64,000 nt of DNA from NCBI RefSeq assembly GCF_018310535.1, contig NZ_CP074102.1:4340001-4404000 (forward strand). Direction: 5' to 3'. This DNA comes from Streptomyces mirabilis. Lineage in GTDB: Bacteria; Actinomycetota; Actinomycetes; Streptomycetales; Streptomycetaceae. The position numbers and the translations under genes are program-made. The notes beneath the pieces were generated by a model that was not told where the DNA came from, did not search any database, and saw only the letters and a list, made by a program, of their open reading frames with translations. Of the stretch, positions 1-17,588 are shown in pieces (the first letter of the stretch is position 1; each line of letters starts with the position of its first letter).

Positions 1-206
1 TGCACCACCCGCCGTTCCCCGCCTTCGACCCTCCGTACGCCGTGGGCCTGATCGAGCTGGCCGAGGGCGTCCGGATCGTCAGCAACGTCATCGGGGTGCC
101 GTACGACAAGGTGCGGATCGGTATGCCCGTGCGGCTCCGGTTCGAGCGGTACGACGAGGAGCTGGTGCTGCCGGTCTTCCGGGCCGGTGCGGAGGGGGGA
201 GGCTGA
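1..206 (+). CDS. OB-fold (DUF35) acyl-CoA-associated protein, C-terminal part, ChsH2-like
   Basis: Only the last 67 codons are present; the gene enters from the left edge. The visible part is the beta-rich OB-fold end of a DUF35 protein: a GLIELAEG strand, a VSNVIG strand, then RIGMPVRLRFE and a final LPVFR strand. DUF35 proteins sit beside thiolases and enoyl-CoA hydratases. In the mycobacterial igr operon the DUF35 module is the C-terminus of ChsH2, which pairs with ChsH1 and docks Ltp2. The next genes are an acyl-CoA dehydrogenase, a ChsH1-like protein and an Ltp2-like protein, so the same role is inferred here. Whether a MaoC domain precedes it cannot be seen. The stop TGA lies one base before the next ATG, so the genes form one operon. 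Confidence 0.8.
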   Translation, partial: HHPPFPAFDPPYAVGLIELAEGVRIVSNVIGVPYDKVRIGMPVRLRFERYDEELVLPVFRAGAEGGG

Positions 207-207
207 C

Positions 208-1239
208 ATGGACTTCACGCCCACCGAGGAACAGACGGCCGCCCGCGACCTGGCCGCGCGGATCTTCGGCGACCTCTCCACCCCGGAGCGGCTCGCCGCG
301 GCCGGCACCGGCAGCGACGCCGAGACGTGGAAGGCGCTCTGCGCGGCCGGGCTGGTGGCGGCCGTCGCGGACACGGGGCTGCTCGGTCTGGTGCTGCTCC
401 TGGAGGAGCAGGGGCGCACCACGGCCCAGGTGCCGTTCGCGGCAAGCTGTGTGTACGGGCTGCTGGCGGTGTCGGCCCACGGTTCACCGGAGCTGCGGGA
501 GCGGCTGCTGCCGGGGATCGGGGACGGGACGGCGGTGGTGTGCGGGGCGGTCTTCGAGCCGGGGGGCGTACGGGCGGACGCGGCGGGGCGGTTGAGCGGA
601 GACGCCCCTGTGGTGCCGTGGCTGCGGGACGCCACCCATGTGCTCGTCGCGGACGACCGGCGCCGGTTGTGGCTCGTACGGGCCGCTGACGCGCGGTGCG
701 CGCCGGTCGAGCTGACGGCACCCTGGGCGGCGGGACGGCTGACGCTCGACGGGACGCCGGGTGAGCCGGTGGGCGGGGCGGACGCGTACGACGACGTGCT
801 CGCCACCGCCCGGACCGCCTTCGCGGGGCTGCAGGCCGGCGTGTGCGCCGGGTCGCTGGCACGAGCCGTGGAGCACACCAAAACACGCGAGCAGTTCGGA
901 CGTCCGCTCGCCGCCAAGCAGGGTGTCCAACTCCGGGCCGCGGACGCGTACATGGACACCGAGGCGATACGGGTGACGGCGTACGAGGCGGCGTGGCGGC
1001 GCGACGAGGGGCTCGCGTACGCGACGCACGCGCTGACCGCGGCCTGGTGGGCGTCCGAGGCTGGGCAGCGGGTCGTGCACACGGGCCAGCATCTGCACGG
1101 AGGGACGGGCGCAGACCTGGAGCACCCGGTGCACCGGCACTTCCTGTGGGGGCGGCAGCTGGACGCGTATCTGGGGTGCGGGAGCCAGGTCCTCCAGGAA
1201 CTGGGGGAGCTGATCGCGAGCGGGGAGGAGGAGACATGA
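208..1239 (+). CDS. Acyl-CoA dehydrogenase, ChsE/FadE28-like
   Basis: A 343-residue FAD-dependent acyl-CoA dehydrogenase. The N-terminus MDFTPTEEQ is the usual opening helix, and the C-terminal half has the family motifs REQFGRPLAAKQGVQ (about residue 230) and QHLHGGTGADLEHPVHR (about 298-314). The ATG at 208 is chosen because a purine-rich ribosome site (GGAGGGGGGAGG) lies just before it; an in-frame upstream start at 187 would overlap the previous gene. It is slightly shorter than classical dehydrogenases and resembles the FadE28/FadE29 type, which work as alpha2beta2 complexes on steroid side-chain CoA esters. Only one such subunit is visible; a partner may lie left of the window. The stop overlaps the next start (ATGA), indicating translational coupling. 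Confidence 0.88.
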   Translation: MDFTPTEEQTAARDLAARIFGDLSTPERLAAAGTGSDAETWKALCAAGLVAAVADTGLLGLVLLLEEQGRTTAQVPFAASCVYGLLAVSAHGSPELRERLLPGIGDGTAVVCGAVFEPGGVRADAAGRLSGDAPVVPWLRDATHVLVADDRRRLWLVRAADARCAPVELTAPWAAGRLTLDGTPGEPVGGADAYDDVLATARTAFAGLQAGVCAGSLARAVEHTKTREQFGRPLAAKQGVQLRAADAYMDTEAIRVTAYEAAWRRDEGLAYATHALTAAWWASEAGQRVVHTGQHLHGGTGADLEHPVHRHFLWGRQLDAYLGCGSQVLQELGELIASGEEET

Positions 1240-1748
1240 GGGCCGGGGAAGGGGAGCGCGTGCGGGGCGAGGGATGGCGCGTTCGGGCCGGAGAGGGCGG
1301 GCGCGTTCGGGGCGGAGAGGGCGGGCGCGTTCGGGGCGGAGAGGGCGAGTGCGTGCGGGTCGGTGACGAGCTGCCGCCGCTGGAGATCGAGATCACGCGC
1401 ACGCTGATCGTGGCCGGGGCGATCGCGTCCCGGGACTACCAGGACGTGCACCACGACGCCGAGCTGGCGCGGCACAGGGGCTCCCCCGACGTCTTCATGA
1501 ACATCCTGACCACCAACGGCCTCGTCGGGCGGTACATCACGGACCACTTCGGGCCGGACGCCGTCCTCCGCAAGGTGGCCATTCGACTGGGGGCGCCCAA
1601 CTACCCCGGCGACACGATGGTGTTGACGGGCAGGGTCGAAGAGGTCGAGGGCGACACCGCGACCGTGCGCGTCGTCGGGGCGAACGGCATCGGCAGACAT
1701 GTGACCGGGACCGTGACGGTCACCCTGCCGCCCGGAGGTGTCTCGTGA
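1236..1748 (+). CDS. MaoC-like hot-dog enoyl-CoA hydratase, ChsH1-like, with a repetitive N-terminus
   Basis: A 170-residue hot-dog fold protein. The segment ASRDYQDVHHDAE (about residues 67-79) followed by SPDVFMNILTTNGLVGRYITD closely resembles ChsH1 (Rv3541c-type) of the mycobacterial igr operon, which hydrates a steroid side-chain enoyl-CoA together with ChsH2. The start ATG overlaps the dehydrogenase stop. Residues 1-40 are a low-complexity run built from GRVRGGEG-like octapeptides encoded by 24-bp DNA repeats, which is not part of the fold. A GTG at 1353, just before VGDELPPL where the family normally begins, is an alternative start that would give 131 residues. The next gene overlaps by GTGA, continuing the operon. 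Confidence 0.85.
   Translation: MRAGEGERVRGEGWRVRAGEGGRVRGGEGGRVRGGEGECVRVGDELPPLEIEITRTLIVAGAIASRDYQDVHHDAELARHRGSPDVFMNILTTNGLVGRYITDHFGPDAVLRKVAIRLGAPNYPGDTMVLTGRVEEVEGDTATVRVVGANGIGRHVTGTVTVTLPPGGVS
1270..1350 (+). repeat. 24-bp direct repeats in the 5' end of the ChsH1-like gene
   Basis: A unit of about 24 bp containing GCGCGTTCGGGGCGGAGAGG occurs about three times with small changes. It is a multiple of three, so it stays in frame and would encode repeated GRVRGGEG octapeptides. Confidence 0.8.
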
Positions 1749-2914
1749 GCGTGCGCACGAGGGACCGGCTCGGCGGCCGGGCGGCGATCGTCGGGATCGG
1801 GGCCACCGAGTTCTCCAAGGACTCCGGGCGCAGCGAGCTGACGCTCGCCGCGGAGGCGGTGCGGGCGGCGCTCGACGACGCGGGGCTGACACCGGCCGAG
1901 GTGGACGGGATGGTCACGTTCACCATGGACACCAGCCCGGAGATCACCGTCGCCCAGGCGGCGGGGATCGGCGAGCTGTCCTTCTTCTCCCGGGTGCACT
2001 ACGGGGGCGGGGCGGCCTGCGCGACCGTCCAGCAGGCGGCGCTCGCGGTGGCGACCGGGGTGGCCGAGGTCGTGGTCTGCTACCGGGCGTTCAACGAGCG
2101 GTCGGGGCGGAGATTCGGGGCGGGGGTGGAGCAGCGGGAGCCGTCCGCCGAGGGGGTCGCGCTGGGCTGGGCGCTGCCGTTCGGGCTGCTCACCCCGGCG
2201 TCCTGGGTGGCGATGGCGGCCCAGCGGTATCTGCACACCTACGGACTGACGCCCGAGGCGTTCGGCCACGTCGCCGTGGTGGACCGCAAGTACGCGGCGA
2301 CGAACCCGGCGGCGTACTTCCACGGCAGACCGATCACCCTCGCCGAACACGCGGCCTCGCGGTGGATCGTGGAGCCGCTGCGGCTGCTGGACTGCTGCCA
2401 GGAGACGGACGGCGGCCAGGCGCTGGTCGTCACCTCCCTGGAGCGCGCCCGGGAGCTGCCGCACCCACCCGCGGTGATCTCCGCGGCCGCCCAGGGTGCG
2501 GGCCGGGCGCAGGAACAGATGACGAGCTTCTACCGGGACGAGCTGACCGGGCTGCCGGAGATGGGGGTGGTGGCGCGCCAGCTGTGGCGGACCTCGGGGC
2601 TGACCCCCAAGGACATCGACGTGGGCATCCTGTATGACCACTTCACGCCGTTCGTGCTGATGCAGCTGGAGGAGTTCGGGTTCTGCAAGCCGGGGGAGGC
2701 CGCGGACTTCGTCGCCGAGGAGCGGCTGCCGCTGAACACCCACGGGGGCCAACTCGGGGAGGCGTATCTGCACGGGATGAACGGGGTGGCGGAGGCCGTA
2801 CGCCAGCTGCGCGGCACGTCCGTGAACCAGATACCGGGCGCCCGCCACACCCTGGTCACCGCGGGCACCGGGGTCCCCACGTCGGGGCTGATCCTGGGGG
2901 CGGACGGGGGATGA
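1745..2914 (+). CDS. ltp2: Thiolase-fold lipid-transfer protein, Ltp2-like aldolase
   Basis: A 389-residue thiolase-superfamily protein starting at a GTG that overlaps the previous stop (GTGA). Characteristic stretches are AAIVGIGATEFSK near the N-terminus, HYGGGAACATVQQAAL (about residues 80-95), YRAFNERSG, LLDCCQETDGGQALV, LYDHFTPF and the C-terminal THGGQLGEAYLHGMNG and AGTGVPTSGLILG. This pattern is very close to mycobacterial Ltp2, a retro-aldolase that removes the last steroid side-chain fragment as propionyl-CoA in complex with the DUF35 domain of ChsH2. The gene order DUF35, dehydrogenase, ChsH1, Ltp2 supports this. A generic acetyl-CoA acetyltransferase label would be less specific. 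The actual substrate in this organism is inferred. Confidence 0.88.
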   Translation: MSVRTRDRLGGRAAIVGIGATEFSKDSGRSELTLAAEAVRAALDDAGLTPAEVDGMVTFTMDTSPEITVAQAAGIGELSFFSRVHYGGGAACATVQQAALAVATGVAEVVVCYRAFNERSGRRFGAGVEQREPSAEGVALGWALPFGLLTPASWVAMAAQRYLHTYGLTPEAFGHVAVVDRKYAATNPAAYFHGRPITLAEHAASRWIVEPLRLLDCCQETDGGQALVVTSLERARELPHPPAVISAAAQGAGRAQEQMTSFYRDELTGLPEMGVVARQLWRTSGLTPKDIDVGILYDHFTPFVLMQLEEFGFCKPGEAADFVAEERLPLNTHGGQLGEAYLHGMNGVAEAVRQLRGTSVNQIPGARHTLVTAGTGVPTSGLILGADGG

Positions 2915-2983
2915 GTACGCTGTCGGGCTCGCTCCGCTCTCCGTGCGTCGCGGAGCCCCCGGGGCCTCTCCGGGACACCCCGG

Positions 2984-3010
2984 GTAGTACGGCAGCCGCC
3001 GCCGTACTAC
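2984..3010. terminator. Hairpin after the steroid-type cassette
   Basis: GTAGTACGGC pairs perfectly with GCCGTACTAC across a 7-base loop, 70 bases past the Ltp2-like stop. There is no T-run, which is usual for Streptomyces terminators. The rest of the 254-base gap up to the sigma factor holds three CCCTCAGG copies and no convincing gene. Confidence 0.55.
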
Positions 3011-3168
3011 TGCCGTATGGGTCCCTCAGGGGTGAACCCTCAGGGTGCAGGGGCCGCTCGTCCACCCTCAGGAGGTGGGGCCAGCCCCCCTCCTACAACC
3101 TGAGGGGGACATCCCTTCGGGACCTGCGGCCGATCCGAAAAGGTAGGGGTCACTCCTAGCGTGGAGCC

Positions 3169-3714
3169 ATGACCACACTCGTCTGCACCAGCGGTTCGAA
3201 CGTCGGGACGCGGACCCTTCCGTACCCGTCGTTCTCGTCGTACATGAAGGCACGCCAGCCGGTGCTGCTGCGTACCGCCCGCTCGCTGACCGCGAACCCG
3301 AGCGACGCCGAGGACCTGCTGCAGACCGCGCTGACAAAGACCTACGTCGCGTGGGAGCGGATCGAGGACCACCGCGCGCTCGACGGCTATGTACGGCGTG
3401 CGCTGCTGAACACCCGGACCTCACAGTGGCGCAAGCGCAAGGTCGACGAGTTCGTGTGCGACGAACTGCCGGAGCCGGAGGGCGTCCCCGCCGGGGACCC
3501 GGCCGAGCAACAGGCGCTGCACGACGCGATGTGGCGCGCCATCATGAAGCTCCCGGCCCGGCAGCGGGCCATGGTCGTCCTGCGGTACTACGAGGACCTC
3601 AGCGAGGCGCAGACCGCGGAGGTACTCGGCGTCTCCGTCGGCACGGTCAAGTCGGCGGTGTCACGGGCGCTGGGCAAGCTGCGCGAGGACCCCGAACTGG
3701 AACCCGTGCGCTGA
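3169..3714 (+). CDS. SigE-family (ECF-like) RNA polymerase sigma factor
   Basis: A 181-residue group 4 sigma factor of the actinobacterial SigE family. Region 2 spans about residues 30-95 (SDAEDLLQTALTKTYVAW is the core RNAP-binding and -10 part), and region 4 spans about 120-175 with the helix-turn-helix LSEAQTAEVLGVSVGTVKS. There is no obvious anti-sigma gene beside it, which is common in this family. The start ATG is preceded by GGAG at short spacing. An ECF-type promoter could lie upstream, but none could be assigned. The gene stands alone between the lipid cassette and the acyl-CoA ligase, so its targets are unknown. Confidence 0.88.
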   Translation: MTTLVCTSGSNVGTRTLPYPSFSSYMKARQPVLLRTARSLTANPSDAEDLLQTALTKTYVAWERIEDHRALDGYVRRALLNTRTSQWRKRKVDEFVCDELPEPEGVPAGDPAEQQALHDAMWRAIMKLPARQRAMVVLRYYEDLSEAQTAEVLGVSVGTVKSAVSRALGKLREDPELEPVR

Positions 3715-3807
3715 CCTTCGGCAGATCCGGGCCCAACGGCCCCCGCGGAAAAGTTCCCGTCCGCGCCGAACGACCCCTGTGACCTGATCGATCGTCCGGA
3801 GCTAGTG

Positions 3808-3825
3808 ACATACCGCGTGGTATGT
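3808..3825. promoter_or_regulatory. TetR-type operator upstream of the acyl-CoA ligase
   Basis: ACATACC and GGTATGT form a perfect 7-bp inverted repeat around GCGT, 59 bases before the chosen ligase start. This size and symmetry are typical of TetR-family operators that control acyl-CoA ligase genes. No TetR gene is adjacent, so the regulator would act from elsewhere. Confidence 0.6.
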
Positions 3826-3883
3826 GCGCAGAATCAGCGCATCCCTTACCACCTCGTAGGCAATGTCGCCCCGGGAGGACGCC

Positions 3884-5539
<1,656 letters not shown>

Positions 5540-5560
5540 GGCCCTCGGCGGCGGAATGAC

Positions 5561-5598
5561 GGTTGGGGTGCTGTTTCACGTGAAACAGCACCCCAACC
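5561..5598. terminator. Perfect 38-bp palindrome between convergent genes
   Basis: Two 19-base arms are perfectly complementary with no loop (GGTTGGGGTGCTGTTTCAC on one side, its exact complement on the other). It sits 22 bases past the ligase stop and 43 bases past the kinase-like gene's stop on the other strand, so it can serve as a bidirectional terminator. Its centre is a parS site. Confidence 0.75.
5572..5587. other. parS: parS centromere site for ParB
   Basis: TGTTTCACGTGAAACA is an exact match to the 16-bp parS consensus (Streptomyces core GTTTCACGTGAAAC). ParB loads here and, with ParA, segregates chromosomes during sporulation septation. Most Streptomyces parS sites cluster within a few hundred kilobases of oriC, which places this window in the core. 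It is the only copy seen in the window. Confidence 0.92.
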
Positions 5599-5640
5599 TT
5601 CGTATGAATGGACCCAGTTCGAGGCCCGGAGCGCAGCGGG

Positions 5641-8600
5641 TCAGTTCGTGCCGATGCGCGCCAGCAGATCCACGATCCGGTCCTGCACCTCGACGCTCGT
5701 CGAGCGCTCGGCCAGGAACAGGACCGTCTCACCCGCGGCGAGGCGCGGCAGTTCGGCCTGGTCGACAGCCGCGGTGTAGACGACGAGCGGGGTGCGGTTC
5801 AACTGCCCGTTCGCCCGCAGCCAGTCCACGATCCCGGCGCGCCGACGCCGTACCTGCATCAGATCCATCACGACCAGGTTCGGCCGCATCTGAGAGGCCA
5901 GCGTGACCGCGTCCGCGTCCGTGGACGCCCGCGCCACCTGCATTCCGCGCCGCTCCAGCGTCAAGGTCAATGCCAGCGCGATCTCCGCGTGCTCCTCGAT
6001 GAGCAGCACGCGCGGCGGGTGCTGCTCGGAATCCCGCGGCGCGAGCGCCTTCAGGAGTACGGCGGGATCGGCGCCGTACGCCGCCTCCCGCGTTGCCTGC
6101 CCCAGTCCCGCTGTCACCAGTACCGGGACCTCGGCGGCGACGGCGGCCTGGCGCAGCGACTGCAGCGCGGTGCGTGTGATCGGACCGGTCAGCGGGTCCA
6201 CGAACAGCGCGGCCGGGAACGCGGCGATCTGCGCGTCCACCTCCTCGCGCGAGTGCACGACGACGGGCCGGTAGCCGCGGTCGCTCAGCGCCTGCTGGGT
6301 CGTCACGTCCGGCGCGGGCCACACGAGGAGGCGGCGCGGGTTGTCCAGCGGCTCCGGGGGCAGCTCGTCGTCCACGGGCCGGGGCTGCGGCTGGTCGGCG
6401 ACCTCGACCGCGCCACCGGGACCGTCCAGCGGCTCAGGACCCTCGTCGGCGTTCTTGTCCGGGGCTCCTATGGCGTACGACCGACCGGCGCCCTCGGTCG
6501 CTCCGGGCAGCCTCGGCCCGGGAGCCGTGGCGGTCTGCCCGGCCTGCGGGTGCGGACGTGCCGTCGTTTCGGGGCGCTCGGCGGCGGGCTCGGGGGGAGT
6601 GCCGAGCTTGCGGCGGCGGCCGGAGCCGTTGGTCTGGTGCGGGGGAGGCGTGGCGGTCTGCTGCGCCTGGGCCGGTACGGCCCCCGGCTGGTTCGGGGCC
6701 GGCTGGCGGCTGAACGGTACGCCCTGCCCGAGCGTCCGCACGCTGAACGCGCGCCCCTGCGTCGAGTTGGGGTCGACCGGCGCGGCGGCCTCGGCGGGCA
6801 GCGGCTGGGCGATCCGCGGCTGAGCCCCCGGCCGGGGCACCTGCTGTGCGGGCTGCTCCGGCGGGAGGGGCGTGCCGGCGGCAGGAGTCTGCGCCTGCGG
6901 CTGGGCCTGGCGCGCGGCCGCCGCCGCGGCGGCGGGTGCGCCGGGCGCTACGGGCGCTCCCGGAGGCACGGGGGTGCCGGGCGGTACGGGAGTGCCGGCG
7001 CCGGAGGTGTCGTCGGCGTTCGGGGCCGGCCAAGGGGCCGGGGCCTGCGCGGGGACGGCCTGTGCCTGGGCTCCGGGTGCCGGAGTGGCCGGTACGGGGA
7101 CGCCCTGGGCCGGAACCGCTGCCGCGGCGGGCCGAGCCGCGGCGGGTGCCGGGGCCTGGCGGGTCCGCAGTCCCGACGGCGCGGGAACCGGGTGCGGCTG
7201 GGGCGGAGTGTGATCGTCGGCCGGGTTGTGCGGCATCCCGTCGTGCCGGCCCTCGTCCCCCTGGTCACGACCGGCGACGCCACCGAGGGCGTCGCCCGCC
7301 TGCTCCAGGAGCTGCTGTTGGGCTCGTTGTGCCTGCTGGGCCTGTTCGGCCTGGACGTACTCGGGTGAGCGGTCCGCTTCAGCCGGCGGAAGCGCGAACA
7401 CGGTCCGGGCGCCCCCGTCCTGCGCGGCGGCGCGCTCGGCCGCCGCGGCCAGCGCCCGCCGACGCCGCCCGGTCGGCTGCGCGCCGGCACCTTCGGCGGG
7501 GACGGCCTCCGGGGCACCCGGAGTACCGGGCGCGCTAGGGGCGCTGGGAGCCGCGGGCAACGCGGGCGGCAGCGCGTGCTGTTCGCCGTCACGCCGTGCC
7601 CGCCGCCCGGACGGCACGGGCACCCCTTGCGGAGAGGCCACGGGAACCCCCTGCGGAGGCACCGTCCCGCCCAGTCCCGTACCCACGGCCGCGGTTCCCG
7701 CCGCGTGCTCGGCCGCCATGACGACCTCGCCCTCCGACACACCCTCGGCCGCGTCGCCGTCCGCGCCCTCGACCGGGCTCGGCCGTCCACGACGGCGCCC
7801 GGTGGCGACGGCGTCGCCGTCACCGGGGCCCTGGGCCTGCGCGGGCACGGAGACCTTGGCGGCGTCCTGCTCCGCGGCCGTACGGCGCCTGCGCCGCCCG
7901 GTGGGAGCGGCCGCATCGCCCTCGGCCGTGACCGGCTCAGCGGGGGCGACCTCGCTCTCCAGGAAGGCGTCCACGGAGGACCGCCGGGCCCGCCGCCTGC
8001 CCCCGCTCTGGTTGCCGCCGTTCTGGTGCGAGGCCTGCTCGGGAAGGGCGATCTCGGCACCGGTCGACACCGGGGCCTCGGGGGCCATCGCTCCGGCCCC
8101 GTCGCCGATCGGCACCTCCAGCACGAACGCGCTGCCGCTCATCCCCGGCACCTCGTGCGTCTGCAGCACGCCGCCGTGCGCCCGCACGATCCCGCGCACG
8201 ATCGGCTCGTGCACCGGGTCTCCCCCGCTGTACGGCCCACGCACCTCGATCCGTACGACCTCGCCACGCTGCGCCGCCGCCACGACGACGGTGTTGTCCA
8301 TGTAGCCGCCCGCGGACACCGGCGCGTTGCCGGTCGCGTCGACGCCGGCCACGTCCGCGATGAGGTGCGCCAGCGCCTGCGCGAGCCGCTGCGGGTCGAC
8401 CTCGGCCTCGATGGGCGGCGCGTGTACGGCGAACTGCACACGCCCGGGCCCGATCAGTTCGACGGCCCCGTCGACACCGGCCGCGACGACCGCGTCCAGC
8501 ATCACGTTCGTACGGACGATCTGCTCGGCCCCCGCGTCCAGCCGCTGATAGCCGAGCACGTTGTCGACGAGGGTCGTGATCCGCGAGTAGCCCGCCGCGA

Positions 8601-9756
8601 GGTGGTGAAGCACCTGGTTGGCTTCGGGCCACAGCTGTCCGGCGTCGTCGGCGGCGAGCTTGGAGAGCTCACCGCGCAGCTGGTCGAGGGGCCCGCGCAG
8701 GGACTGGCCGAGCACCGACAGGAGCTGGTCGTGCCGGGCGGTCAGTGCCTCGTAGCGGTCCTTCTCGCGCTCGCCGAGCGCCGCGTACCGCTCATCACCC
8801 GCGGCGAGTTCCTCCTCGTGGCGCTCGCGCACCTCGGCGAGCTCGGCGGCGTGCCGCTCGCGCAGCGCCTCCAGCTCCGCCGCGTGCTCCTCGCCGATCC
8901 GCTCGATCTCCTCCGCGTGCAGGGTGGCCTCGGCGTCCTTCTCCTCGACGAGGCTGTCGTACGGCCGTCGGTCGGTGAAGGTCATCACGGCGCCGACGAG
9001 CTGGTCCCCGTCGCGCACCGGAGCGGTCGTCAGGTCGACCGGCACCTTGTCCCCGGACTTGGACCACAACACCTGCCCGCGCACCCGGTGCTTGCGCCCG
9101 GAGCGCAGGGTGTCGGCGAGCGGGGACTCCTCGTACGCGAAGGACTCGCCGCCCGCGCGCGAGTGAAGGATGAGGGCGTGCAGGTCCTGCCCGCCGAGAT
9201 CACTGGCCCGGTATCCCAGTATCTGAGCGGCCGCCGGATTGACGAGGACGACCCGCCCCTCCGTGTCCGTGCCCACGACACCCTCGGCCGCCGCGCGCAG
9301 GATCATCTCGGTCTGTCGTTGCGAACGCGCGAGTTCGGCCTCGGTGTCGACGGTGCCCGACAGATCGCGTACGACGAGCATGAGCAGCTCGTCAGGGGCG
9401 GGACCGTAACTGTCGTAGGCCTGCTGGCCGTTCTCCAGGTTCGCGCTGGTGACCTCGACCGGGAACTCGCTGCCGTCGGTCCGCCGCGCGATCATCCTGG
9501 TCGGCTTGGTCCGCCCGCTCTGGTCGATCGTCTCGGGCCGCCGCATGGACCCGGGGATCAGCCGCGAGTCGAACTGCGGGAGCAGATCGAGCAGCCCCCG
9601 ACCCACCAGAGCCGTACCCGGGGCCTCGAAGGCCTCCAGGGCGATGGTGTTGGCGTTGACGACCGTGCCATTGGCGTTGACCAGCACCAACGCATCGGGC
9701 AGCGCGTCCAGTATGGCTGCGAGGCGAGCAGCGCCTCGGGATGGCCTGCTGCTCAC
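5641..9756 (-). CDS. Giant PAS / degenerate histidine kinase / receiver-like hybrid protein
   Basis: A 1371-residue protein with a GTG start. Order: PAS domain (about 8-110), PAS domain (about 150-265), a charged coiled coil (about 270-335), a DHp-like helix pair, an ATPase-like domain (about 425-560), a roughly 550-residue Pro/Ala/Arg-rich linker, and two receiver-like domains (about 1130-1371). In the DHp region the expected HELRTPL reads QSLRGPL, so the phospho-accepting His is replaced by Gln. The N and G boxes are also hard to find. The last receiver-like domain keeps an Asp in VVMDLMQ, but its acidic pair reads EE. It resembles the few hybrid kinases of S. coelicolor (such as SCO4009). 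It is probably a signalling scaffold rather than an active kinase. It stands alone and is convergent with the ligase. Confidence 0.8.
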   Translation of the reverse strand: MSSRPSRGAARLAAILDALPDALVLVNANGTVVNANTIALEAFEAPGTALVGRGLLDLLPQFDSRLIPGSMRRPETIDQSGRTKPTRMIARRTDGSEFPVEVTSANLENGQQAYDSYGPAPDELLMLVVRDLSGTVDTEAELARSQRQTEMILRAAAEGVVGTDTEGRVVLVNPAAAQILGYRASDLGGQDLHALILHSRAGGESFAYEESPLADTLRSGRKHRVRGQVLWSKSGDKVPVDLTTAPVRDGDQLVGAVMTFTDRRPYDSLVEEKDAEATLHAEEIERIGEEHAAELEALRERHAAELAEVRERHEEELAAGDERYAALGEREKDRYEALTARHDQLLSVLGQSLRGPLDQLRGELSKLAADDAGQLWPEANQVLHHLAAGYSRITTLVDNVLGYQRLDAGAEQIVRTNVMLDAVVAAGVDGAVELIGPGRVQFAVHAPPIEAEVDPQRLAQALAHLIADVAGVDATGNAPVSAGGYMDNTVVVAAAQRGEVVRIEVRGPYSGGDPVHEPIVRGIVRAHGGVLQTHEVPGMSGSAFVLEVPIGDGAGAMAPEAPVSTGAEIALPEQASHQNGGNQSGGRRRARRSSVDAFLESEVAPAEPVTAEGDAAAPTGRRRRRTAAEQDAAKVSVPAQAQGPGDGDAVATGRRRGRPSPVEGADGDAAEGVSEGEVVMAAEHAAGTAAVGTGLGGTVPPQGVPVASPQGVPVPSGRRARRDGEQHALPPALPAAPSAPSAPGTPGAPEAVPAEGAGAQPTGRRRRALAAAAERAAAQDGGARTVFALPPAEADRSPEYVQAEQAQQAQRAQQQLLEQAGDALGGVAGRDQGDEGRHDGMPHNPADDHTPPQPHPVPAPSGLRTRQAPAPAAARPAAAAVPAQGVPVPATPAPGAQAQAVPAQAPAPWPAPNADDTSGAGTPVPPGTPVPPGAPVAPGAPAAAAAAARQAQPQAQTPAAGTPLPPEQPAQQVPRPGAQPRIAQPLPAEAAAPVDPNSTQGRAFSVRTLGQGVPFSRQPAPNQPGAVPAQAQQTATPPPHQTNGSGRRRKLGTPPEPAAERPETTARPHPQAGQTATAPGPRLPGATEGAGRSYAIGAPDKNADEGPEPLDGPGGAVEVADQPQPRPVDDELPPEPLDNPRRLLVWPAPDVTTQQALSDRGYRPVVVHSREEVDAQIAAFPAALFVDPLTGPITRTALQSLRQAAVAAEVPVLVTAGLGQATREAAYGADPAVLLKALAPRDSEQHPPRVLLIEEHAEIALALTLTLERRGMQVARASTDADAVTLASQMRPNLVVMDLMQVRRRRAGIVDWLRANGQLNRTPLVVYTAAVDQAELPRLAAGETVLFLAERSTSVEVQDRIVDLLARIGTN

Positions 9757-9958
9757 GAGACGCTTCCTCCCTGTTACCGCACCTTGCCGACCGCGAGGGC
9801 CATCTTGCCAACCTGCCCGCAGCGTGTCACGCGAGGGAGTCTACGGGCAGAGGTTGCGCTCGCGGCGCCGGATGAGAGGGAGGTCGCACGCAGAAGAACG
9901 GAAGAACCTGTGACCGCGCATTTCACCCCTTCCCTCCCTACCTCGCCGAACCACGGCG

Positions 9959-10456
9959 TCACCATGCCCGAGCCGTGCCGCGGCTGTGGGCGGAGCCGGG
10001 GAGCAGGGGGACGAGGGCGTCCCAGCGCGCGATCTGGCAGCCGTCCGCCCGGTCGAACCGCGCGTCGACGGGCCGCCCGGCCCAGGTCCCGGTCACATGG
10101 GCGGTGGCCGGACCGCCGTACATCATCGTGCACATCGTGCCGGGCGCCACGGGGGCGAAGGGGTCCTTGCCCCAGGTGGTCCGCCGGTCCAGCGTCGTGC
10201 ACGCCTTGCCCACGTCGGGGTGACTGCCGCCATCGGGATGACATCGCAGTTCGTACGTCCCGTCGCCGCCTTCCGCGTGCTGGACGGTCACGGTCAGCCG
10301 GTCCCCGAAATCCTCGTCGCGGGCCGGCGGAGGCATCAGGCTCAGGGAGGCCGGCTCCGCGCGGGCGGCTCCGGCGTGGGCGACGGCGGGCAGGGCGGGC
10401 ACGGCGGACAGTGCCGCGACGGACGCGGCGGCGGTGAGGACGAGACGACGCAACAT
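9959..10456 (-). CDS. Subtilisin-inhibitor-like (SSI) secreted protease inhibitor
   Basis: A 165-residue secreted protein. Residues 1-30 are a signal peptide (RR, hydrophobic core, AVAHA cleavage region). The mature part has SSI hallmarks: the LRCHP.GG.HP motif with its cysteine, AC..L, the reactive-site loop CTMMYGGP, VTGTWAGRPV and a final GC near RW, giving the four cysteines of two disulfides. By alignment with SSI (CPMVYDP) the P1 residue would be Met, suggesting inhibition of subtilisin-like proteases. In Streptomyces such inhibitors control secreted proteases and transglutaminase activation around sporulation. No partner protease is adjacent. A GC-rich octamer-like repeat lies in its upstream region. 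Confidence 0.88.
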   Translation of the reverse strand: MLRRLVLTAAASVAALSAVPALPAVAHAGAARAEPASLSLMPPPARDEDFGDRLTVTVQHAEGGDGTYELRCHPDGGSHPDVGKACTTLDRRTTWGKDPFAPVAPGTMCTMMYGGPATAHVTGTWAGRPVDARFDRADGCQIARWDALVPLLPGSAHSRGTARAW

Positions 10457-10528
10457 GACCTGACTAACGCGAGGGGGCGCGAGCGGTTGCGCGCGGCCGA
10501 CGCCTGCGCCCCGCGTCTCTCAGGAGTA

Positions 10529-10573
10529 CCGGCTCTCCGGCTCTCCGACTCCTCGGCTCTCCGACTCCTCGGG
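10529..10573. repeat. Short tandem repeat upstream of the SSI gene
   Basis: Alternating CCGGCTCT and CCGACTCCT units occur five to six times in about 45 bases, between the SSI gene start and the tRNA-Ser gene. It lies in the SSI gene's 5' region on the minus strand. No function can be assigned. Confidence 0.7.
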
Positions 10574-10684
10574 ACTTTGCTCTGTGGCCCGACTGCCTAG
10601 TACCGTGGGAGCCGATTGGTGACACCCCACCCGGCTGTGTCATCATCTGCACGCACCGCTTGCGCTCGCGCGGGCGGTTGTGCG

Positions 10685-10775
10685 GGAGGCGTCGCCTAGT
10701 CCGGTCTATGGCGCCGCACTGCTAATGCGGTTTGGGCCTTAAAGCCCATCGAGGGTTCAAATCCCTCCGCCTCCG
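10685..10775 (+). tRNA. tRNA-Ser (anticodon GCU)
   Basis: A class II tRNA of 91 bases. The acceptor stem GGAGGCG pairs with CGCCTCC plus discriminator G. The anticodon loop CTGCTAA carries GCT, and the long variable arm (GGGCCTTAAAGCCC region) is typical of tRNA-Ser. The T arm GAGGGTTCAAATCCCTC is intact. CCA is not encoded directly after the discriminator. It reads AGC and AGU. Confidence 0.96.
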
Positions 10776-10784
10776 CGCCAAGAT

Positions 10785-10818
10785 CCGAAGCCCCGGTCCA
10801 CCTGGACCGGGGCTTCGG
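10785..10818 (+). terminator. Terminator after tRNA-Ser
   Basis: CCGAAGCCCCGGTCCA pairs perfectly with TGGACCGGGGCTTCGG over a two-base spacer, nine bases after the tRNA gene. It is a strong GC-rich hairpin. Confidence 0.88.
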
Positions 10819-10874
10819 TGTTGAGTACCTGTGGAGCGCGTTTGCCCAGCTCACAAGGGGTGCGGCAAACGGAT

Positions 10875-10903
10875 TTCACATGGCGGCGGCAGTCATGTAA
10901 TGT
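10875..10903 (+). promoter_or_regulatory. Promoter of tRNA-Arg
   Basis: TTCACA and TAATGT are separated by 17 bases, a close match to a housekeeping (HrdB) promoter. Transcription would start near 10910, giving a roughly 60-base leader before the mature tRNA-Arg. Confidence 0.65.
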
Positions 10904-10969
10904 TCTTCCTGTCGCCGCGAGCGGGCCGAAAGCCCGGGAAGCGGGACGAAGCAGGAAACAAGAAAACAA

Positions 10970-11042
10970 GCACTCGTAGCTTAACGGATAGAGCATCTGA
11001 CTACGGATCAGAAGGTTGCAGGTTCGAATCCTGCCGAGTGCA
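10970..11042 (+). tRNA. tRNA-Arg (anticodon ACG)
   Basis: A 73-base tRNA with acceptor GCACTCG pairing to CGAGTGC and discriminator A. The anticodon arm TCTGA-CTACGGA-TCAGA carries ACG, and the T loop GGTTCGAATCC is intact. ACG is converted to ICG by TadA, whose gene lies at 35.4-35.9 kb, and then reads CGU, CGC and CGA. CCA is not encoded. Confidence 0.96.
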
Positions 11043-11049
11043 CATCAGA

Positions 11050-11085
11050 CCAGAGGTCCTGTGGAGTGATCCACAGGGCCTCTGG
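11050..11085 (+). terminator. Terminator after tRNA-Arg
   Basis: CCAGAGGTCCTGTGGA and TCCACAGGGCCTCTGG form a 16-bp stem with a GTGA loop, followed by CTTTT. One mismatch is a G-T pair. Confidence 0.88.
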
Positions 11086-11161
11086 CTTTTGCCTTGACGG
11101 CAGTGTTTGACGGCAACCGCCTTCCTTCTGTCCACGCCCTAAAAGGGGAACACTGTCCGGC

Positions 11162-11533
11162 ATGCCTGTCTCGCTGCATCACATCGTCATCGACGCCCAC
11201 GACCTGCCCGCCCTGTCCCGGTTCTGGGCTGAGGTGCTGGGCTGGCGGATCCTGTCCGAGCGGGAGCGGGAGGTCGTGATCGGGCCGGACGAGACGGCCC
11301 CGGTGGGAATCTGCTTCATGCCGGTGACCGACCGCAAGGTCGTCAAGAACCGCCTGCACCTCGATCTGACCTCGACGGCGGAGGACCGGGAAGCCGAGAT
11401 CGAGCGAATCCTTGCCCTCGGCGCTCGCAGAGCGGACGTCGGGCAGGGCGGCGACGAGTCATGGACCGTGCTGGCCGATCCGGAGGGGAACGAGTTCTGC
11501 GTAGTCCGTCCGAAGGAGACCCTCATCGGATAG
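11162..11533 (+). CDS. VOC family protein (glyoxalase/bleomycin-resistance fold)
   Basis: A 123-residue single-domain vicinal-oxygen-chelate protein. It begins LHHIVIDAHDLPALSRFWAEVLGW, the typical first beta-alpha-beta unit with a metal-ligand-type His. The second half has LHLDLTS (second His), then WTVLADPEGNEFCVV with the usual Glu ligand position. Substrates in this superfamily vary widely (glyoxals, antibiotics, aromatic diols), so no reaction is assigned. An ATG at 11162 with GGGGAA upstream is the start. It stands alone downstream of the tRNA-Arg terminator; the region after it is decayed DNA. Confidence 0.85.
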   Translation: MPVSLHHIVIDAHDLPALSRFWAEVLGWRILSEREREVVIGPDETAPVGICFMPVTDRKVVKNRLHLDLTSTAEDREAEIERILALGARRADVGQGGDESWTVLADPEGNEFCVVRPKETLIG

Positions 11534-11711
11534 CCCTGGAAGTCGATCAGACGGCTACCGGGACACCGGCCCATAGTCACCCGGATCGAGCTGGCGCCTT
11601 CGCGAGTCGAGGCCGGCCGCGTCGCTGTTGTCGTGTGCGATCAGTGCCTCACCACGGGAGGCTCGGCGGCCGGCGGTGGCACTGCGACGCCCCTGTGTGT
11701 GACACCTCGCC

Positions 11712-12268
11712 AGTTGGAACCCCTGACGCGAATGGTCAGGGGACCATTGCCTACACGGTCCAGGACCTGGCCTTCAGCACGGTAAGCCCGCTGCCTGACG
11801 CGACCCAGAACGTCGCCTACTCCACCACTCTGCAGACCACCGGCGGCAGGCATCGGGAACTCCACCTTCGCGGTTACTGACGGCTTCCTGCCCCCCCCGG
11901 CCTGAGCCTCGACCCGGACAGCGGAGAGATCTCCGGCACTCCCACCACAAATGGCACGTTCACGTTCACCGTCACGGCCGCCGACCCCAATCCGAACGTG
12001 CCTGTGGCCTCGCGGCAGTTCACACTCACCGTGCAGTCCCCCGCCCCACTACCTGCGCCACCAGCCCCGCCGACCTGCATGCCCAGGGCTTCAACGTCAT
12101 CACCGGCAACGACCGCCCCAACATCCTGATCGGTACCCAGGCACGGGATGCGATCTTCGGGTTCGGCGGCGGCGACACCATCAACGGGCGCGGCGGCGAC
12201 GACCTGCCGTGCGGCGGCCCAGGCAACGACGTCCTTGCCGGGCCGACGGCAACGACCGAACGTGAAGT
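11712..12268 (+). pseudogene. Remnant of an Ig-like / RTX calcium-binding repeat surface protein
   Basis: Fragments of one protein are read in different frames. First TVQDLAFSTVSPLPDATQNV and TTLQTTGG, then in another frame GIGNSTFAVTDGFLPP. After a run of eight Cs comes GLSLDPDSGEISGTPTTNGT with FTFTVTAADPNPNVPV (a putative Ig, He_PIG domain). Then, in a further frame, NVITGNDRPNILIGTQARDA and FGFGGGDTINGRGGDD with a GGPGNDVLAG repeat (hemolysin-type calcium-binding nonapeptides). A further base loss breaks the final GADGNDR repeat. At least three or four frameshifts are needed, so the gene is dead unless the sequence is wrong at several sites. Intact relatives are secreted or cell-surface proteins. 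No signal peptide region survives upstream. Confidence 0.75.
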
Positions 12269-12584
12269 TCCAGCCCGGCTTGCCGAGAGTATTGCGCAGT
12301 TCGACAGCATTCGGTTTGACCGGTCGGTGTCCGCGCAGGAAGTGCGCAGACGAAGTGTCGGGCGTCGTCGGCGGTATCGCGCTCTCTCCGCCGAGGTTAT
12401 CGATCGACGTCGAATTCGATATCCACACCATGAGGATCTCGGAATGGGCCTGCGCTAACGGAGACCAGGTGTGCAGGCGTCGCGTAGGGAGTCCAGAGGC
12501 CCCGGAGGGATTCGGGGCCTCTGGCATTGGGGGAGTACGGGGCTGTGGGTTTGGTCGTCGTCGGAGTGTTCGGTCCTGTGGGCG
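12269..12584. other. Gene-free stretch
   Basis: About 316 bases between the RTX remnant and the convergent secreted-protein gene. It is less GC-biased than its surroundings and shows no open frame with family resemblance. The only clear structure is the hairpin at 12493-12524. Confidence 0.6.
12493..12524 (-). terminator. Terminator of the 12.6-13.2 kb secreted-protein gene
   Basis: CCAGAGGCCCC and GGGGCCTCTGG form a perfect 11-bp stem with a 10-base loop, 60 bases past the stop of the minus-strand gene. Confidence 0.75.
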
Positions 12585-13247
12585 TCAGTCGGCATGGGTG
12601 GCATGGGCGTCCGGGTTGCGGACGCTAGCGAGGAGCTTCTGGTACGTCTCACTCATGGGCTTCTCCTTCCCCTTCGGGCTGAGAGAGATGATCTCGATGA
12701 AGTGGTCGTCGCCGGCGATGAGGCGGGCGGAGCCCGAAGCGCCGTCAGGGGCGGAGAGACGCGCGTCGAGGGTCGGCTGGCCGTGGACCGTGATCTTGTG
12801 GACGCCGGTGCTGGAGAGCTTGTGCTTGGAGGACTGGACGGCCTCGTTGTAGCCGTCCACCAAGCCCCGAAGACCGTCGTTGAGGTCCCCCTTCGCGCGG
12901 GGCAGGTCGAAGACCGCGAAGACGATGACCCCGTTATCGGTCTTCACCTTGTAAAGGCGACCGCTCATTCCGTCCACGGCCTCGGTGAACTTCGTGACCC
13001 TGGGCTTTTCGGGAAGCCGGAATGTGATGCCGCTCGCGGCGTCGGTGGTCTCCACCCATTGCTTGGCGGAGCCGGGGCTGCCGTGCGGACGGTGAGCGTC
13101 ATGATCGGAGGCGACCGCGGTGACGGCGGCCGTGTGCGGTGCCGCCGTGGCGGCCATCGCGCTGCTGGGCAGCACCGCGCCTCCGGCGATCACGGTGGTC
13201 GAGGCGGCGAGCAGCAGAAGGCGCTGGAAATGGGAACGGCGAGTCAT
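12585..13247 (-). CDS. Secreted protein of unknown function
   Basis: A 220-residue protein with a clear Sec signal peptide: MTRRSHFQR, a hydrophobic core LLLLAASTTVIAGGAV and cleavage near AMAATA (about residue 32). The mature part begins with a His-rich stretch (SDHDAHRPHG), then an alpha/beta-like domain with SGITFRLPEKPRVTKF and VVFAVFDLPR-like strands. This could be a PsbP/LpqN-like fold, but that is only a guess. No catalytic motif is visible, and the C-terminus is again His-containing (DAHATHAD). It is a single gene with its own terminator. I do not recognise its function. Confidence 0.78.
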   Translation of the reverse strand: MTRRSHFQRLLLLAASTTVIAGGAVLPSSAMAATAAPHTAAVTAVASDHDAHRPHGSPGSAKQWVETTDAASGITFRLPEKPRVTKFTEAVDGMSGRLYKVKTDNGVIVFAVFDLPRAKGDLNDGLRGLVDGYNEAVQSSKHKLSSTGVHKITVHGQPTLDARLSAPDGASGSARLIAGDDHFIEIISLSPKGKEKPMSETYQKLLASVRNPDAHATHAD

Positions 13248-13404
13248 GGAAATTCACATCCCGTGGAAGTGGAGGGAGGGGGGCAGTGGGTTGACGAATG
13301 GTCTGCGACTTACGGGTTTCCGGCCGTGCGTCGCATGTGTCCATTAGGCCCGGTCCTTTGAATCGGGTCATGCCCCTGAATCACGTGACGCGAGAAGTCG
13401 GGAC

Positions 13405-13647
13405 TTGACCTATGCCGTCGGGCTGAGCACAATCCCCGGCCCGCACGCCGTCGCCGCGGCGCGCCAGGACGCGATGGCGCGCAGCCAAGAAATGATCTTT
13501 CGGAGTCAGGAGGTGATCGCTCGCGGCCAGGGGGTGATCGCCCGGAGTCAGGACGCGATGGCGGCGGCCCTGGGGCGCATGGCCGAGTCGTCGGACCGGA
13601 TCGCGGGGCGGTCGGGGCGGGCGGCGGGGGCGGGAAGCCGCTGGTGA
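13405..13647 (+). CDS. Small heptad-repeat protein of unknown function
   Basis: An 80-residue ORF with a TTG start and GAGAAG upstream; an ATG at 13474 is an alternative giving 57 residues. Residues 19-74 consist of eight consecutive heptapeptides, such as ARQDAMA, RSQEMIF, RSQEVIA, RGQGVIA and RSQDAMA. They are encoded by 21-bp DNA units, so a short amphipathic or coiled-coil helix is predicted. Its stop overlaps the start of the next small gene (GTGATGA), so the two are probably cotranslated. Codon use is Streptomyces-like. I do not recognise a family. Confidence 0.55.
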   Translation: MTYAVGLSTIPGPHAVAAARQDAMARSQEMIFRSQEVIARGQGVIARSQDAMAAALGRMAESSDRIAGRSGRAAGAGSRW

Positions 13648-13901
13648 TGACTCCGCAGGAACTGCCGACGGGGTGGCAGGCGAGGAATCGTGTCGTCACC
13701 GCGGATGTGCACGCCGTGGCGGCGTATCTCGCGCCCGCCCTCGTGCGGGGGAAGGCGCAGTACCGGCTGGAGGACATCGCGGGGCGAACCGGGCTGACGG
13801 TGGAGCGCGTGCACGACAGGGTGCGGATGTTGCTCAAACGCGGATGCATGAAGCAGAGCGGGTGCGCGGCGGACGGGGCGCCGGTGTACGTGCTGCCTTA
13901 G
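13644..13901 (+). CDS. Small helix-turn-helix protein
   Basis: An 85-residue protein starting at GTG 13644 or the adjacent ATG 13647, overlapping the preceding stop. Residues 35-70 form a winged-helix-like segment: YRLEDIAGRTGLTVERVHDR as helix-turn-helix, then VRMLLKRGCMKQSG. This suggests DNA binding, or a transcription-factor fragment like the MarR/IclR wings. The N-terminal half (WQARNRVVTADVHAVAAYLAP) is helical. Together with the heptad-repeat gene it forms a two-gene unit, terminated by the hairpin at 13996-14034. Targets and role are unknown. Confidence 0.65.
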   Translation: MMTPQELPTGWQARNRVVTADVHAVAAYLAPALVRGKAQYRLEDIAGRTGLTVERVHDRVRMLLKRGCMKQSGCAADGAPVYVLP

Positions 13902-13995
13902 GGGGTTGCCAGAAGGACGCCAAGGGGGCCAGGGAACGCCGAAGGAACACCGAAGGAACGTCGAAGGACGCGGAAGGACGCAGGACGAAGGAGAC

Positions 13996-14034
13996 GGGCC
14001 CGAAGTCGCATCCCATACTTGCGGCTTCGGGCCC
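13996..14034. terminator. Hairpin between convergent genes
   Basis: GGGCCCGAAG pairs with CTTCGGGCCC, extended by an inner TCGC/GCGG partial stem. It lies between the small HTH gene and the convergent MarR gene, and serves both. The 90 bases before it contain repeated CGAAGGA units. Confidence 0.82.
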
Positions 14035-14062
14035 TTCCCACGTTAGGTGAAGGCGCGCAGGC

Positions 14063-14548
14063 TCAGTCGCTCTTCCGCAGCTCCTCCAGGTATTCGCCCA
14101 TCAGCCTTCCCGTACGGGTGAACCAGTCGTACAGGACCGCGATCTCGGCGGGCGAGTAGTCGGAGAAGAGTTCGGTGACGCGGGCGTAGTGCGGCTCGTA
14201 GAGGGACATGACACGGGCGACCGCGTCCGGGTTCGCGGCCACGCGGACACGGCGGCGGTCGTCGGGGTCGGGACGGCGGGTGACGTAGTCGGCGCGTTCG
14301 AGGCGGTTGAGGATCCCCGTGACGGCGCCCGTCGTGACGTGGGCCCGCTCTGCGAGGTCGCCGGCCGTGAGCAGGGTGTCGCCCGCCTCCAGGACGAAGC
14401 CGAAGCAGGTGAGGTCGGTGACGTTCAGGTTCAGCCGCTGGGCCATCTCCTGCTGGCCGATCATGCCCGTCGCGATGAGGTGGTCCATGGCGCTCAGCGC
14501 CTGGGCCGGAGTCGCGGGTGGGCGCGGCGTGCCCTGCTGCATGCGCAT
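14063..14548 (-). CDS. MarR-family transcriptional regulator
   Basis: A 161-residue winged-helix regulator. The recognition region is LTAGDLAERAHVTTGAVTGILNRLERADYV (about residues 60-89), followed by the wing RRPDPDDRRRVRVA, the MarR signature. Helices at both ends provide the dimer interface. It is divergent from the HGxxPAAW gene across about 105 bases, which would hold a shared operator; no perfect palindrome was found there. The ligand is unknown. MarR proteins usually repress a neighbouring gene and themselves. Confidence 0.88.
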   Translation of the reverse strand: MRMQQGTPRPPATPAQALSAMDHLIATGMIGQQEMAQRLNLNVTDLTCFGFVLEAGDTLLTAGDLAERAHVTTGAVTGILNRLERADYVTRRPDPDDRRRVRVAANPDAVARVMSLYEPHYARVTELFSDYSPAEIAVLYDWFTRTGRLMGEYLEELRKSD

Positions 14549-14653
14549 TTCCCTTAGTGCGTGAGATGTTTCTGGAGTAGATTTCTTAGCTTGTGAGGGA
14601 TTCTAGTCCTTCACGTCACGAAACTCCGCTGTTCGGACAGAGGGAGGCAATAC

Positions 14654-15022
14654 GTGAGCAAGCATGACGAGGGGCACACCCTCGCGGGCTGGATCGGATT
14701 CGGGATCGCCACCGTGGGGGTGGCGGGCATCGGGCTGGGGGTCTGCGCCGACAACGCCCTCGGAGAGTGGGGCGGGCTGGCGGTCGTGGCCGTGAGTGTG
14801 CTGGTCACCTGGGCGCTTCATCTCGCCGGGTGGGGCAAGCCGCCCGGGCGGCGGCCGGCCTCGGAGTGGGGACTGCGGGTCAGGGACCTGCGCGCGAGGG
14901 AGGGGCATCTCGGGTGTCTGGGGTGCCGGCTGGCGGGGCGTGGGCGGCCCGCGGTCAGGTCGGACGTGGCTGTCGGCGGTAAGCCTGTGAGTGGTGAACC
15001 CGTGACCGAGTCCGCCACCTGA
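14654..15022 (+). CDS. HGxxPAAW-family small membrane protein
   Basis: A 122-residue protein starting at GTG with GGAGG at good spacing. The N-terminal motif of the family (HGxxPAAW) appears here as EGHTLAGW, a diverged form. Two transmembrane helices follow (about 14-34 and 40-60). The C-terminal cytoplasmic tail holds WGKPPGRRP, then GHLGCLGCRLAGRGR with a CxxC pair that could bind a metal or be redox active. The family is widespread in actinomycetes, and its function is not known. It is divergent from a MarR regulator, which may control it. Confidence 0.75.
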   Translation: MSKHDEGHTLAGWIGFGIATVGVAGIGLGVCADNALGEWGGLAVVAVSVLVTWALHLAGWGKPPGRRPASEWGLRVRDLRAREGHLGCLGCRLAGRGRPAVRSDVAVGGKPVSGEPVTESAT

Positions 15023-15081
15023 ACGGCTGCCCGCTCGCCGCCCGGCTCCGTTGTCGGTGGCAACGCCTACGCTCGTGAGTG

Positions 15082-15951
15082 ATGGCACAGACGTGGAGAT
15101 GTTCGGGTCTGCGGTGGTCGGCCGACGGCCCCGTGCTGATGTGGGGCGGCGGGCGGAGCAGTGCGCTGTCCTGGGGGAAGCGGGTGGCCTTTGGGGTGGT
15201 GGACGAGGGCGTACGGACGTGTGTGGGGGCGCGGGGGAACGCGTGTCCGGTGCGGGCGGTGGTGTCGGGGCGGAGTGCGGGGGCCCGTTGTGAGGAGTGC
15301 GCGCGGCTGGACCGCGCGCACTCCGTGGCCGCCGACACGATGGCCGACGACCCGCGGCCCTACCGCGTGTACCTCGCGTGGTTCGGGCCCGGCATGGTCA
15401 AGGTCGGGATCACCGGAGTCGCGCGCGGGCCGGCTCGGCTGCTGGAGCAGGGGGCTGTCGTCTTCAGCTGGCTGGGGCAGGGGCCGTTGATGGCGGCGCG
15501 GCGGACCGAGGAGCTGCTGCGGGCGGCGCTCCGGGTGCCGGATCGGATCCCGTACGCCGAGAAGAGGGCGGTGCGGGCCGCGTTGCCGGGGGCGGGCGAG
15601 CGGCTGGAGGAGATCCGGGAGCTGCACGCGCGGGTCATGGAGCTCGAAGGCTGGCCCGAGTCCCTGGAGCGGGCGCCCTTCCAGGCCGTCGATCACACCG
15701 AGGTGTTCGGGCTCGAAGGGCTCCCGCCCGCCGTCGGTGTCGTGAGCGAGCTGGTCGCGGGCGGTGTGGTGAGCGGAGAGCTGGTCGCCGCGGCCGGGCC
15801 CGATCTGCACCTTTCGACCGGGCGTGGGGTCGTCGTGGTCGATACGCGGCTCATGACCGGGTGGGAGCTGACCGCGGTCAGGGGTGAGCAACTGACGGTT
15901 CCCGTAAGGGAGTGGGAAGACAGGAGCGTGAAGCAGGACGGACTCTTCTGA
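15082..15951 (+). CDS. DUF2797 protein with a GIY-YIG-like segment
   Basis: A 289-residue protein. Cysteines in CPVRAVVSGRSAGARCEEC (about residues 54-72) suggest a zinc site. They are followed by YRVYLAWFGPGMVKVGITG (about 93-111), which resembles the beta-hairpin core of GIY-YIG nucleases. The rest is helical, with no further motif. The annotated family is DUF2797, function unknown. An ATG at 15082 (GTG one codon earlier) has no ribosome site; a TACGCT hexamer 9 bases upstream suggests a leaderless transcript. It stands alone. Confidence 0.75.
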   Translation: MAQTWRCSGLRWSADGPVLMWGGGRSSALSWGKRVAFGVVDEGVRTCVGARGNACPVRAVVSGRSAGARCEECARLDRAHSVAADTMADDPRPYRVYLAWFGPGMVKVGITGVARGPARLLEQGAVVFSWLGQGPLMAARRTEELLRAALRVPDRIPYAEKRAVRAALPGAGERLEEIRELHARVMELEGWPESLERAPFQAVDHTEVFGLEGLPPAVGVVSELVAGGVVSGELVAAAGPDLHLSTGRGVVVVDTRLMTGWELTAVRGEQLTVPVREWEDRSVKQDGLF

Positions 15952-16071
15952 GTGCCCGAGTGTGAGTGCCCGCGCGGTGCCGTTCTCCGAGGGTCAAGAG
16001 TTGGATCCCTCTTGGATCCCGTTCGGAAAGGGCCTGGACGAGTGGGGAGGCCCGGCCCGACAGTGGTTGCC

Positions 16072-16464: not shown

Positions 16465-16493
16465 GACACGGGGACCGAGTAGGACACGGGGAC
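16447..16493 (+). repeat. 18-bp tandem repeat spanning the ABM gene stop
   Basis: GACACGGGGACCGAGTAG occurs twice exactly, then 11 bases of a third copy. The TAG in each unit is in frame, so the gene stop itself has been duplicated. Confidence 0.9.
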
Positions 16494-16519
16494 TGGACGG
16501 AACAAGGAGGCAGGGCGGA

Positions 16520-17458: not shown

Positions 17459-17514
17459 ACGGGATGTCCCATCAGCCCCTGAGCGGACGCCCGATCAGTC
17501 CTTGAACGGGGCGC
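17446..17514 (+). repeat. 24-bp imperfect tandem repeat over the amidohydrolase stop
   Basis: Three units begin CATCAGTCCCTGAACGGG, CATCAGCCCCTGAGCGGA and ATCAGTCCTTGAACGGGG, at 24-base steps. Each contains TGA in the same frame as the gene stop, suggesting the gene end was copied. Confidence 0.8.
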
Positions 17515-17554
17515 CTCGGAACGCCCCTCGGGGACTTCGTGATCTTCCCAGGAG

Positions 17555-17588
17555 TTCCCTGAGAGGCACCTGTGTGTTTCTCAGGGAA
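17555..17588 (+). promoter_or_regulatory. Inverted repeat in the leader of the response-regulator operon
   Basis: TTCCCTGAGA and TCTCAGGGAA are exact complements, 14 bases apart. The overlapping pair CCTGTG and CACAGG allows an alternative hairpin. It lies 53-86 bases before the response-regulator start, a good place for an operator or an attenuating leader. Confidence 0.5.

Follow-up and report, generated by a model that had tools for sequence, protein, structure and literature searches.

A parS site nested in a gene-end palindrome between convergent Streptomyces genes: a probable double-duty element

Why should a chromosome-partition site be flanked by further bases that pair perfectly with one another, and why should it lie at the point where two genes converge? 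The question arises in a 64,000-nucleotide stretch of the Streptomyces mirabilis chromosome (hereafter, the window), in which positions 5561..5598 form a perfect 38-bp palindrome, identical to its own reverse complement and pairing over 19 positions from the centre. The core, at 5572..5587, is the exact 16-bp parS consensus (TGTTTCACGTGAAACA), which has no strand, and the window contains no other match to it at up to three mismatches. On either side lie a left outer arm (5561..5571) and a right outer arm (5588..5598) of 11 bases each, and all 11 outer pairs are perfect. The palindrome sits inside the 101-bp gap separating the stop codons of two convergent genes: an AMP-binding acyl-CoA ligase gene on the + strand (3863..5539), which ends 21 bases before it, and a large PAS / response-regulator-like gene on the - strand (5641..9756), whose stop codon is 42 bases past it. 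Both the sequence and the gene calls bear out an earlier, sequence-only reading that had placed an exact parS inside a perfect 38-bp palindrome between convergent genes. The gene labels given there hold in part: the acyl-CoA ligase agrees with the AMP-binding assignment, whereas "kinase-like" is too loose for the second gene, because Pfam finds PAS domains, a response-regulator match slightly under the curated cut-off and no kinase domain in its protein, and the NCBIfam sensor-kinase matches are partial and below cut-off.

As a chromosomal parS, the site has both the 16-bp consensus and a place in a cluster near parAB. The genome holds 23 parS-like sites (up to two mismatches), all of them between 4.08 and 4.35 Mb of the 9.1-Mb contig. 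This ~265-kb cluster includes parA and parB (4.215-4.217 Mb, ~129 kb from the window's site), and the window's parS is its outermost member on that side. Counted from the centre, perfect arms extend over 20 pairs at contig position 4229518, 19 at the window's site, 13 at 4243437 and 4248239, 12 at 4274770 and 10 at 4229464, and the remaining 17 of the 23 sites have arms of at most 8 pairs. By a simple gene finder of our own, five of the six longest-armed sites have convergent neighbours and the sixth has codirectional ones. In other bacteria generally, ParB loads SMC at parS. For Streptomyces, the accessible parts of the literature give 11 to 65 parS sites per chromosome (PMC8743542), and they describe, in S. 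venezuelae, ParB ChIP-seq peaks that fall nearly all at parS sites (PMC4852455) and an SMC that promotes ParB spreading away from them (PMC12511625).

The outer arms can be judged by their behaviour in relatives. We took 220 orthologous loci, of which 211 could be anchored on both genes with tblastn and 9 could not; 187 were distinct, and we analysed the 165 with a gap of up to 200 bp, leaving out 22 longer ones. In 15 of the 187 distinct loci the gap measures 1.9-2.5 kb rather than ~100 bp, which suggests that genes were inserted inside the convergent pair. A parS with up to two mismatches occurs in 56 of the 165 gaps; by class, 40 gaps are nested, 12 are of a "shoulder" type described below, 4 are of other kinds and 109 have no parS, and these counts are not genus-wide frequencies, because the query used to choose relatives by similarity itself included the site. 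Perfect arms reach 29 pairs from the centre in one of them (L235).

In these gaps the arms change together. Across the 47 exact parS sites (46 distinct), taken with no selection on arms, complementarity holds in 506 of 644 cells for positions 1-14 beyond the core, versus 330 (sd 11; maximum 368 in 2000 trials) when right halves are permuted among sequences, a procedure that does not preserve relatedness. When the partners are slid by 1 to 3 columns, 170-216 of 506 cells are complementary, versus 382 in register. For the 40 nested rows, a tree based on the flanking genes gives, summed over positions 1-14, 72 double changes from one pair to another versus 44 losses of Watson-Crick pairing, and at the inner nine positions 42 versus 10, with G-T counted as unpaired; the permutation test is the cleaner of the two, because the tree rows were picked as nested. 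On the same tree, a minimum of 11 changes is required to account for where parS is present and 10 for the nested state, counts from which gain and loss are indistinguishable. The sequence-only reading had said beforehand that free variation of the outer arms between relatives would tell against it; by both the permutation test and the double changes, the arms do not vary freely but co-vary.

The arrangement recurs at a second convergent gap, behind the PolyA_pol gene (C1:4229464-4229533 in this genome), which we followed in the best 30 loci of 150 genomes. All 30 contain a parS with up to one mismatch, and 29 contain two copies, 41-76 bp apart. The exact sites in these best loci, 58 in number and all distinct, have arms of at least 14 pairs in 45 cases, and 533 of their 696 cells at positions 1-12 are complementary, versus 350 ± 12 (maximum 396) on permutation.

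Long arms also depend on gene ends. We surveyed the surroundings of parS sites with up to one mismatch in nine genomes, over a continuous 280 kb in this genome and over tiles around exact sites in eight others, and obtained 111 sites, of which 46 each are convergent and codirectional, 11 are divergent and 8 lie within called genes. Among the exact ones (n = 72), arms of at least 17 pairs surround 14 of the 30 convergent sites and 2 of the 30 codirectional ones, and none of the 6 divergent or the 6 intragenic ones. The comparison of 14/30 with 2/42 elsewhere (Fisher p = 3e-5, with the same result at thresholds of 14 and 15) is to be read with a simple gene finder and the non-independence of orthologous sites across genomes in mind. 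Both long-armed sites outside convergent gaps lie between codirectional genes. No parS with arms of at least 17 pairs is present among the 8 exact sites of G031, G047 and G065 together, and 16 of the 30 exact convergent sites of the nine genomes have no long arms; nesting is therefore no rule.

Hairpins are present at this position even where parS is missing. Among orthologous gaps of 45-200 bp we counted stems of at least 10 pairs, tolerating one mismatch: 53 of 56 gaps with parS have one, parS itself giving up to 6 of the pairs, as do 81 of 106 without it; only 0.4% and 3.6% of the respective shuffles have such stems. With strong hairpins in 81 of 106 parS-free gaps, the hairpin is a property of the gene end, with parS at its apex. 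Whole-gap folding is, in the median, weaker for nested-parS gaps than for parS-free ones (-55.3 vs -64.1 kcal/mol, lengths uncontrolled). The parS-free gaps of 40-300 bp in this genome, taken over the 280-kb stretch and the window from 10001 on, have such stems in 12 cases out of 23 when convergent, 20 out of 103 when codirectional and 1 out of 15 when divergent. From the comparison of relatives, the compensatory arm changes show a gene-end hairpin that is maintained by selection.

Other arrangements of parS and hairpin are found in the orthologous gaps as well. At the 12 "shoulder" loci (L027, L033, L043, L060, L062, L063, L071, L075, L148, L270, L274 and L276), parS either overlaps a separate hairpin at its foot or adjoins it there, and at four of them (L027, L043, L063 and L274) its AACA end pairs with a TGTT on the opposite foot. 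One gap (L042) carries two exact parS sites, one in each arm of a single hairpin; another (L053) also has two, each in a separate nested palindrome. A half parS (TGTTTCACGTG) is left at the hairpin foot in L040 and looks like a decayed site.

Paired arms need not imply selection on a hairpin. Palindromes may become symmetrical through template switching, and the parS palindrome could seed such switching during replication, one arm being copied onto the other; the frequent perfection and length of the arms (up to the 29 pairs of L235) and the many double changes falling on single branches of the tree fit this account. We nevertheless consider it unlikely. Our negative control was the gap upstream of parA, in the best 30 loci of 61 genomes. 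Two sites with up to one mismatch are present there in 30/30 of these best loci, and they are bare in every one, 11 pairs being the longest run at any of 54 distinct sites. The 23 distinct exact sites have 142 of 276 cells complementary versus 141.4 ± 1.0 permuted, hence no excess, in a control that is little able to show co-variation because its flanks are strongly conserved. Its telling point is that these flanks are conserved yet imperfect as palindromes. The lack of long arms at divergent and intragenic exact sites also counts against template switching, with six sites of each kind and coding limits on the intragenic ones, as do the separate hairpins maintained in parS-free orthologous gaps.

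Because the parA-side sites are bare, we reject the idea that ParB needs the arms in general. A narrower version, in which the arms serve ParB or DNA structure at certain sites only, as an extended ParB operator or as a cruciform that tunes the loading of ParB and SMC, would explain why the arms are centred exactly on parS and why the flanks nearest the core show a mild preference, with GA...TC frequent outside convergent gaps too. Yet the letters of the arms vary freely among species provided that pairing holds, which is unlike a sequence read by a protein; the sites upstream of parA manage without arms, and the hairpins remain where parS is missing. We judge this version improbable. Chance, or a general richness of convergent gaps in hairpins with parS centred by accident, can be rejected as extremely improbable: stems do occur in 16 of 27 convergent gaps in the sampled stretches of this genome, but eleven extra pairs at a single site have a probability of ~2e-6 (arithmetic from the average proportions of A and T in such gaps), and the exact centring is seen repeatedly, across several sites and many species.

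If the arms are kept for a hairpin, does that hairpin end transcripts? RNA from either strand of 5561..5598 forms a hairpin in computed folds: the 80-nt RNA around the palindrome folds at -41.2 kcal/mol on the + strand (shuffled mean -24.1) and at -40.0 kcal/mol on the - strand (shuffled mean -23.1), with z ~ -5.4 and 0 of 200 shuffles equally good on either strand. Of the features of a canonical intrinsic terminator, the GC-rich hairpin is there, 21 bases after the ligase stop, and the U-tract is not. A canonical T-rich tail is missing from both strands at 5561-5598, which is why the site does not appear in a consensus terminator scan. The top entry of that scan for window positions 1-20000 is a hairpin of 16 pairs with a T-rich tail behind it, at 11050-11085 (+ strand). 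Among the 40 nested hairpins of the orthologous loci, the 8 nt after the stem contain at least 4 T in 4 cases on the + strand and in none on the - strand. With no U-tract, the hairpin would at best be a U-less terminator. A strong hairpin at a gene end without a U-tract is the mark of the U-less structured ("I-shaped") 3' end; U-less structured transcript ends are described for S. clavuligerus in the available part of PMC8269248, where such Streptomyces ends may be either U-less intrinsic terminators or trimmed Rho-dependent ends. Judged by sequence and position, the palindrome may function as a terminator of this kind.

The parS, the palindrome, the co-variation of its arms, their dependence on gene ends and the recurrence of the arrangement are, in our view, best explained by one short element that probably serves both chromosome partition and transcript ends; it is likely that the parS centre is there for ParB, that the whole palindrome forms a hairpin at RNA 3' ends and that the arms are kept for the hairpin. 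We favour double duty because relatives keep the hairpin while its letters change. The claim of the sequence-only reading that one sequence is both partition site and terminator is supported in part: it gains from the co-varying arms, from the place of the parS in the parAB cluster, from the agreement of the second gap and from the contrast with the sites upstream of parA, and it loses its canonical form with the missing U-tract.

Under the double-duty reading, the centre of the palindrome would act in double-stranded DNA as an ordinary chromosomal parS and should load ParB, while in RNA from either strand the whole palindrome would form a strong hairpin at the end of each convergent gene's transcript, where it would either terminate transcription in both directions without a U-tract or stabilise the 3' ends. 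The outer arms would be maintained for this hairpin rather than for ParB. Convergent gaps tend to have hairpins anyway, and in several Streptomyces lineages parS takes the apex. Since the RNA hairpin and the ParB apex would work on different molecules, they need not exclude each other. If ParB does bind this copy and transcripts do end here, a site where transcription stops from both sides would be a sensible loading point for ParB (and SMC), and ParB might in turn affect termination.

Within a small sample, mostly of one site per genome, the long nested arrangement seems to have its centre in Streptomyces. Loci from other genera of the class (30 loci of 59 matching genomes, the 59 including some Streptomyces) contain 38 exact parS sites, none with a run above 15 pairs and 2 with a run of exactly 15. 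Of 24 distinct sites in L320-L340, 3 belong to Streptomyces itself (L321, L322 and L323) and 21 to other genera of the family, in which the longest run is 14 pairs (L320). A pattern GGGGNN-parS-NNCCCC, found in 4 of 101 family genomes, was set aside, because our locus has three bases rather than two between the G run and parS.

The components of the element are already known: parS itself, U-less gene-end hairpins and, in the accessible part of PMC2397512, terminators built from recognition words in Neisseria. Like chromosomal Streptomyces parS sites of the ParABS system, the present one has an exact consensus core and clusters around parAB; unlike the ordinary ones, it forms the apex of a longer perfect palindrome with co-varying arms. 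It shares with the U-less (HS-U-lack) ends in the available text of PMC8269248 a strong GC-rich hairpin soon after the stop and the absence of a U-tract, and differs in that parS, a protein-binding DNA word, replaces the loop and upper stem of what would be the terminator. The Neisseria DNA uptake sequence pairs resemble it in that a repeated recognition word supplies part of a terminator stem (same part of PMC2397512), but there the stem consists of two uptake words in inverted orientation and the function is DNA uptake, whereas here the apex is a single parS, palindromic in itself, on a stem of unrelated arms, and the function is partition. We found no report of a nested parS hairpin tied to convergent genes in searches of an open-licence library, which leave absence in print unproven; the accessible portions of PMC8269248, PMC7022226, PMC5157956, PMC12511625, PMC12207404, PMC8410768, PMC2397512, PMC8743542 and PMC4852455 contain no parS in a terminator.

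The element would join two processes that are usually studied separately. As a tentative wider reading, Streptomyces may have recurrent, transcription-insulated centromere sites, at which bidirectional 3'-end hairpins between convergent genes would carry parS at the apex, or at the foot in other lineages; ParB and SMC would load exactly where transcription from both sides stops, and ParB occupancy might adjust termination and be adjusted by it. This raises the questions of whether a ParB clamp at parS helps or hinders the release of RNA polymerase, and whether halted transcription protects the loading of ParB and SMC. If hairpin and parS do share sequence, many Streptomyces partition sites may follow the placement rules of transcript ends, which would bear on why streptomycetes have many parS sites and on where these lie.
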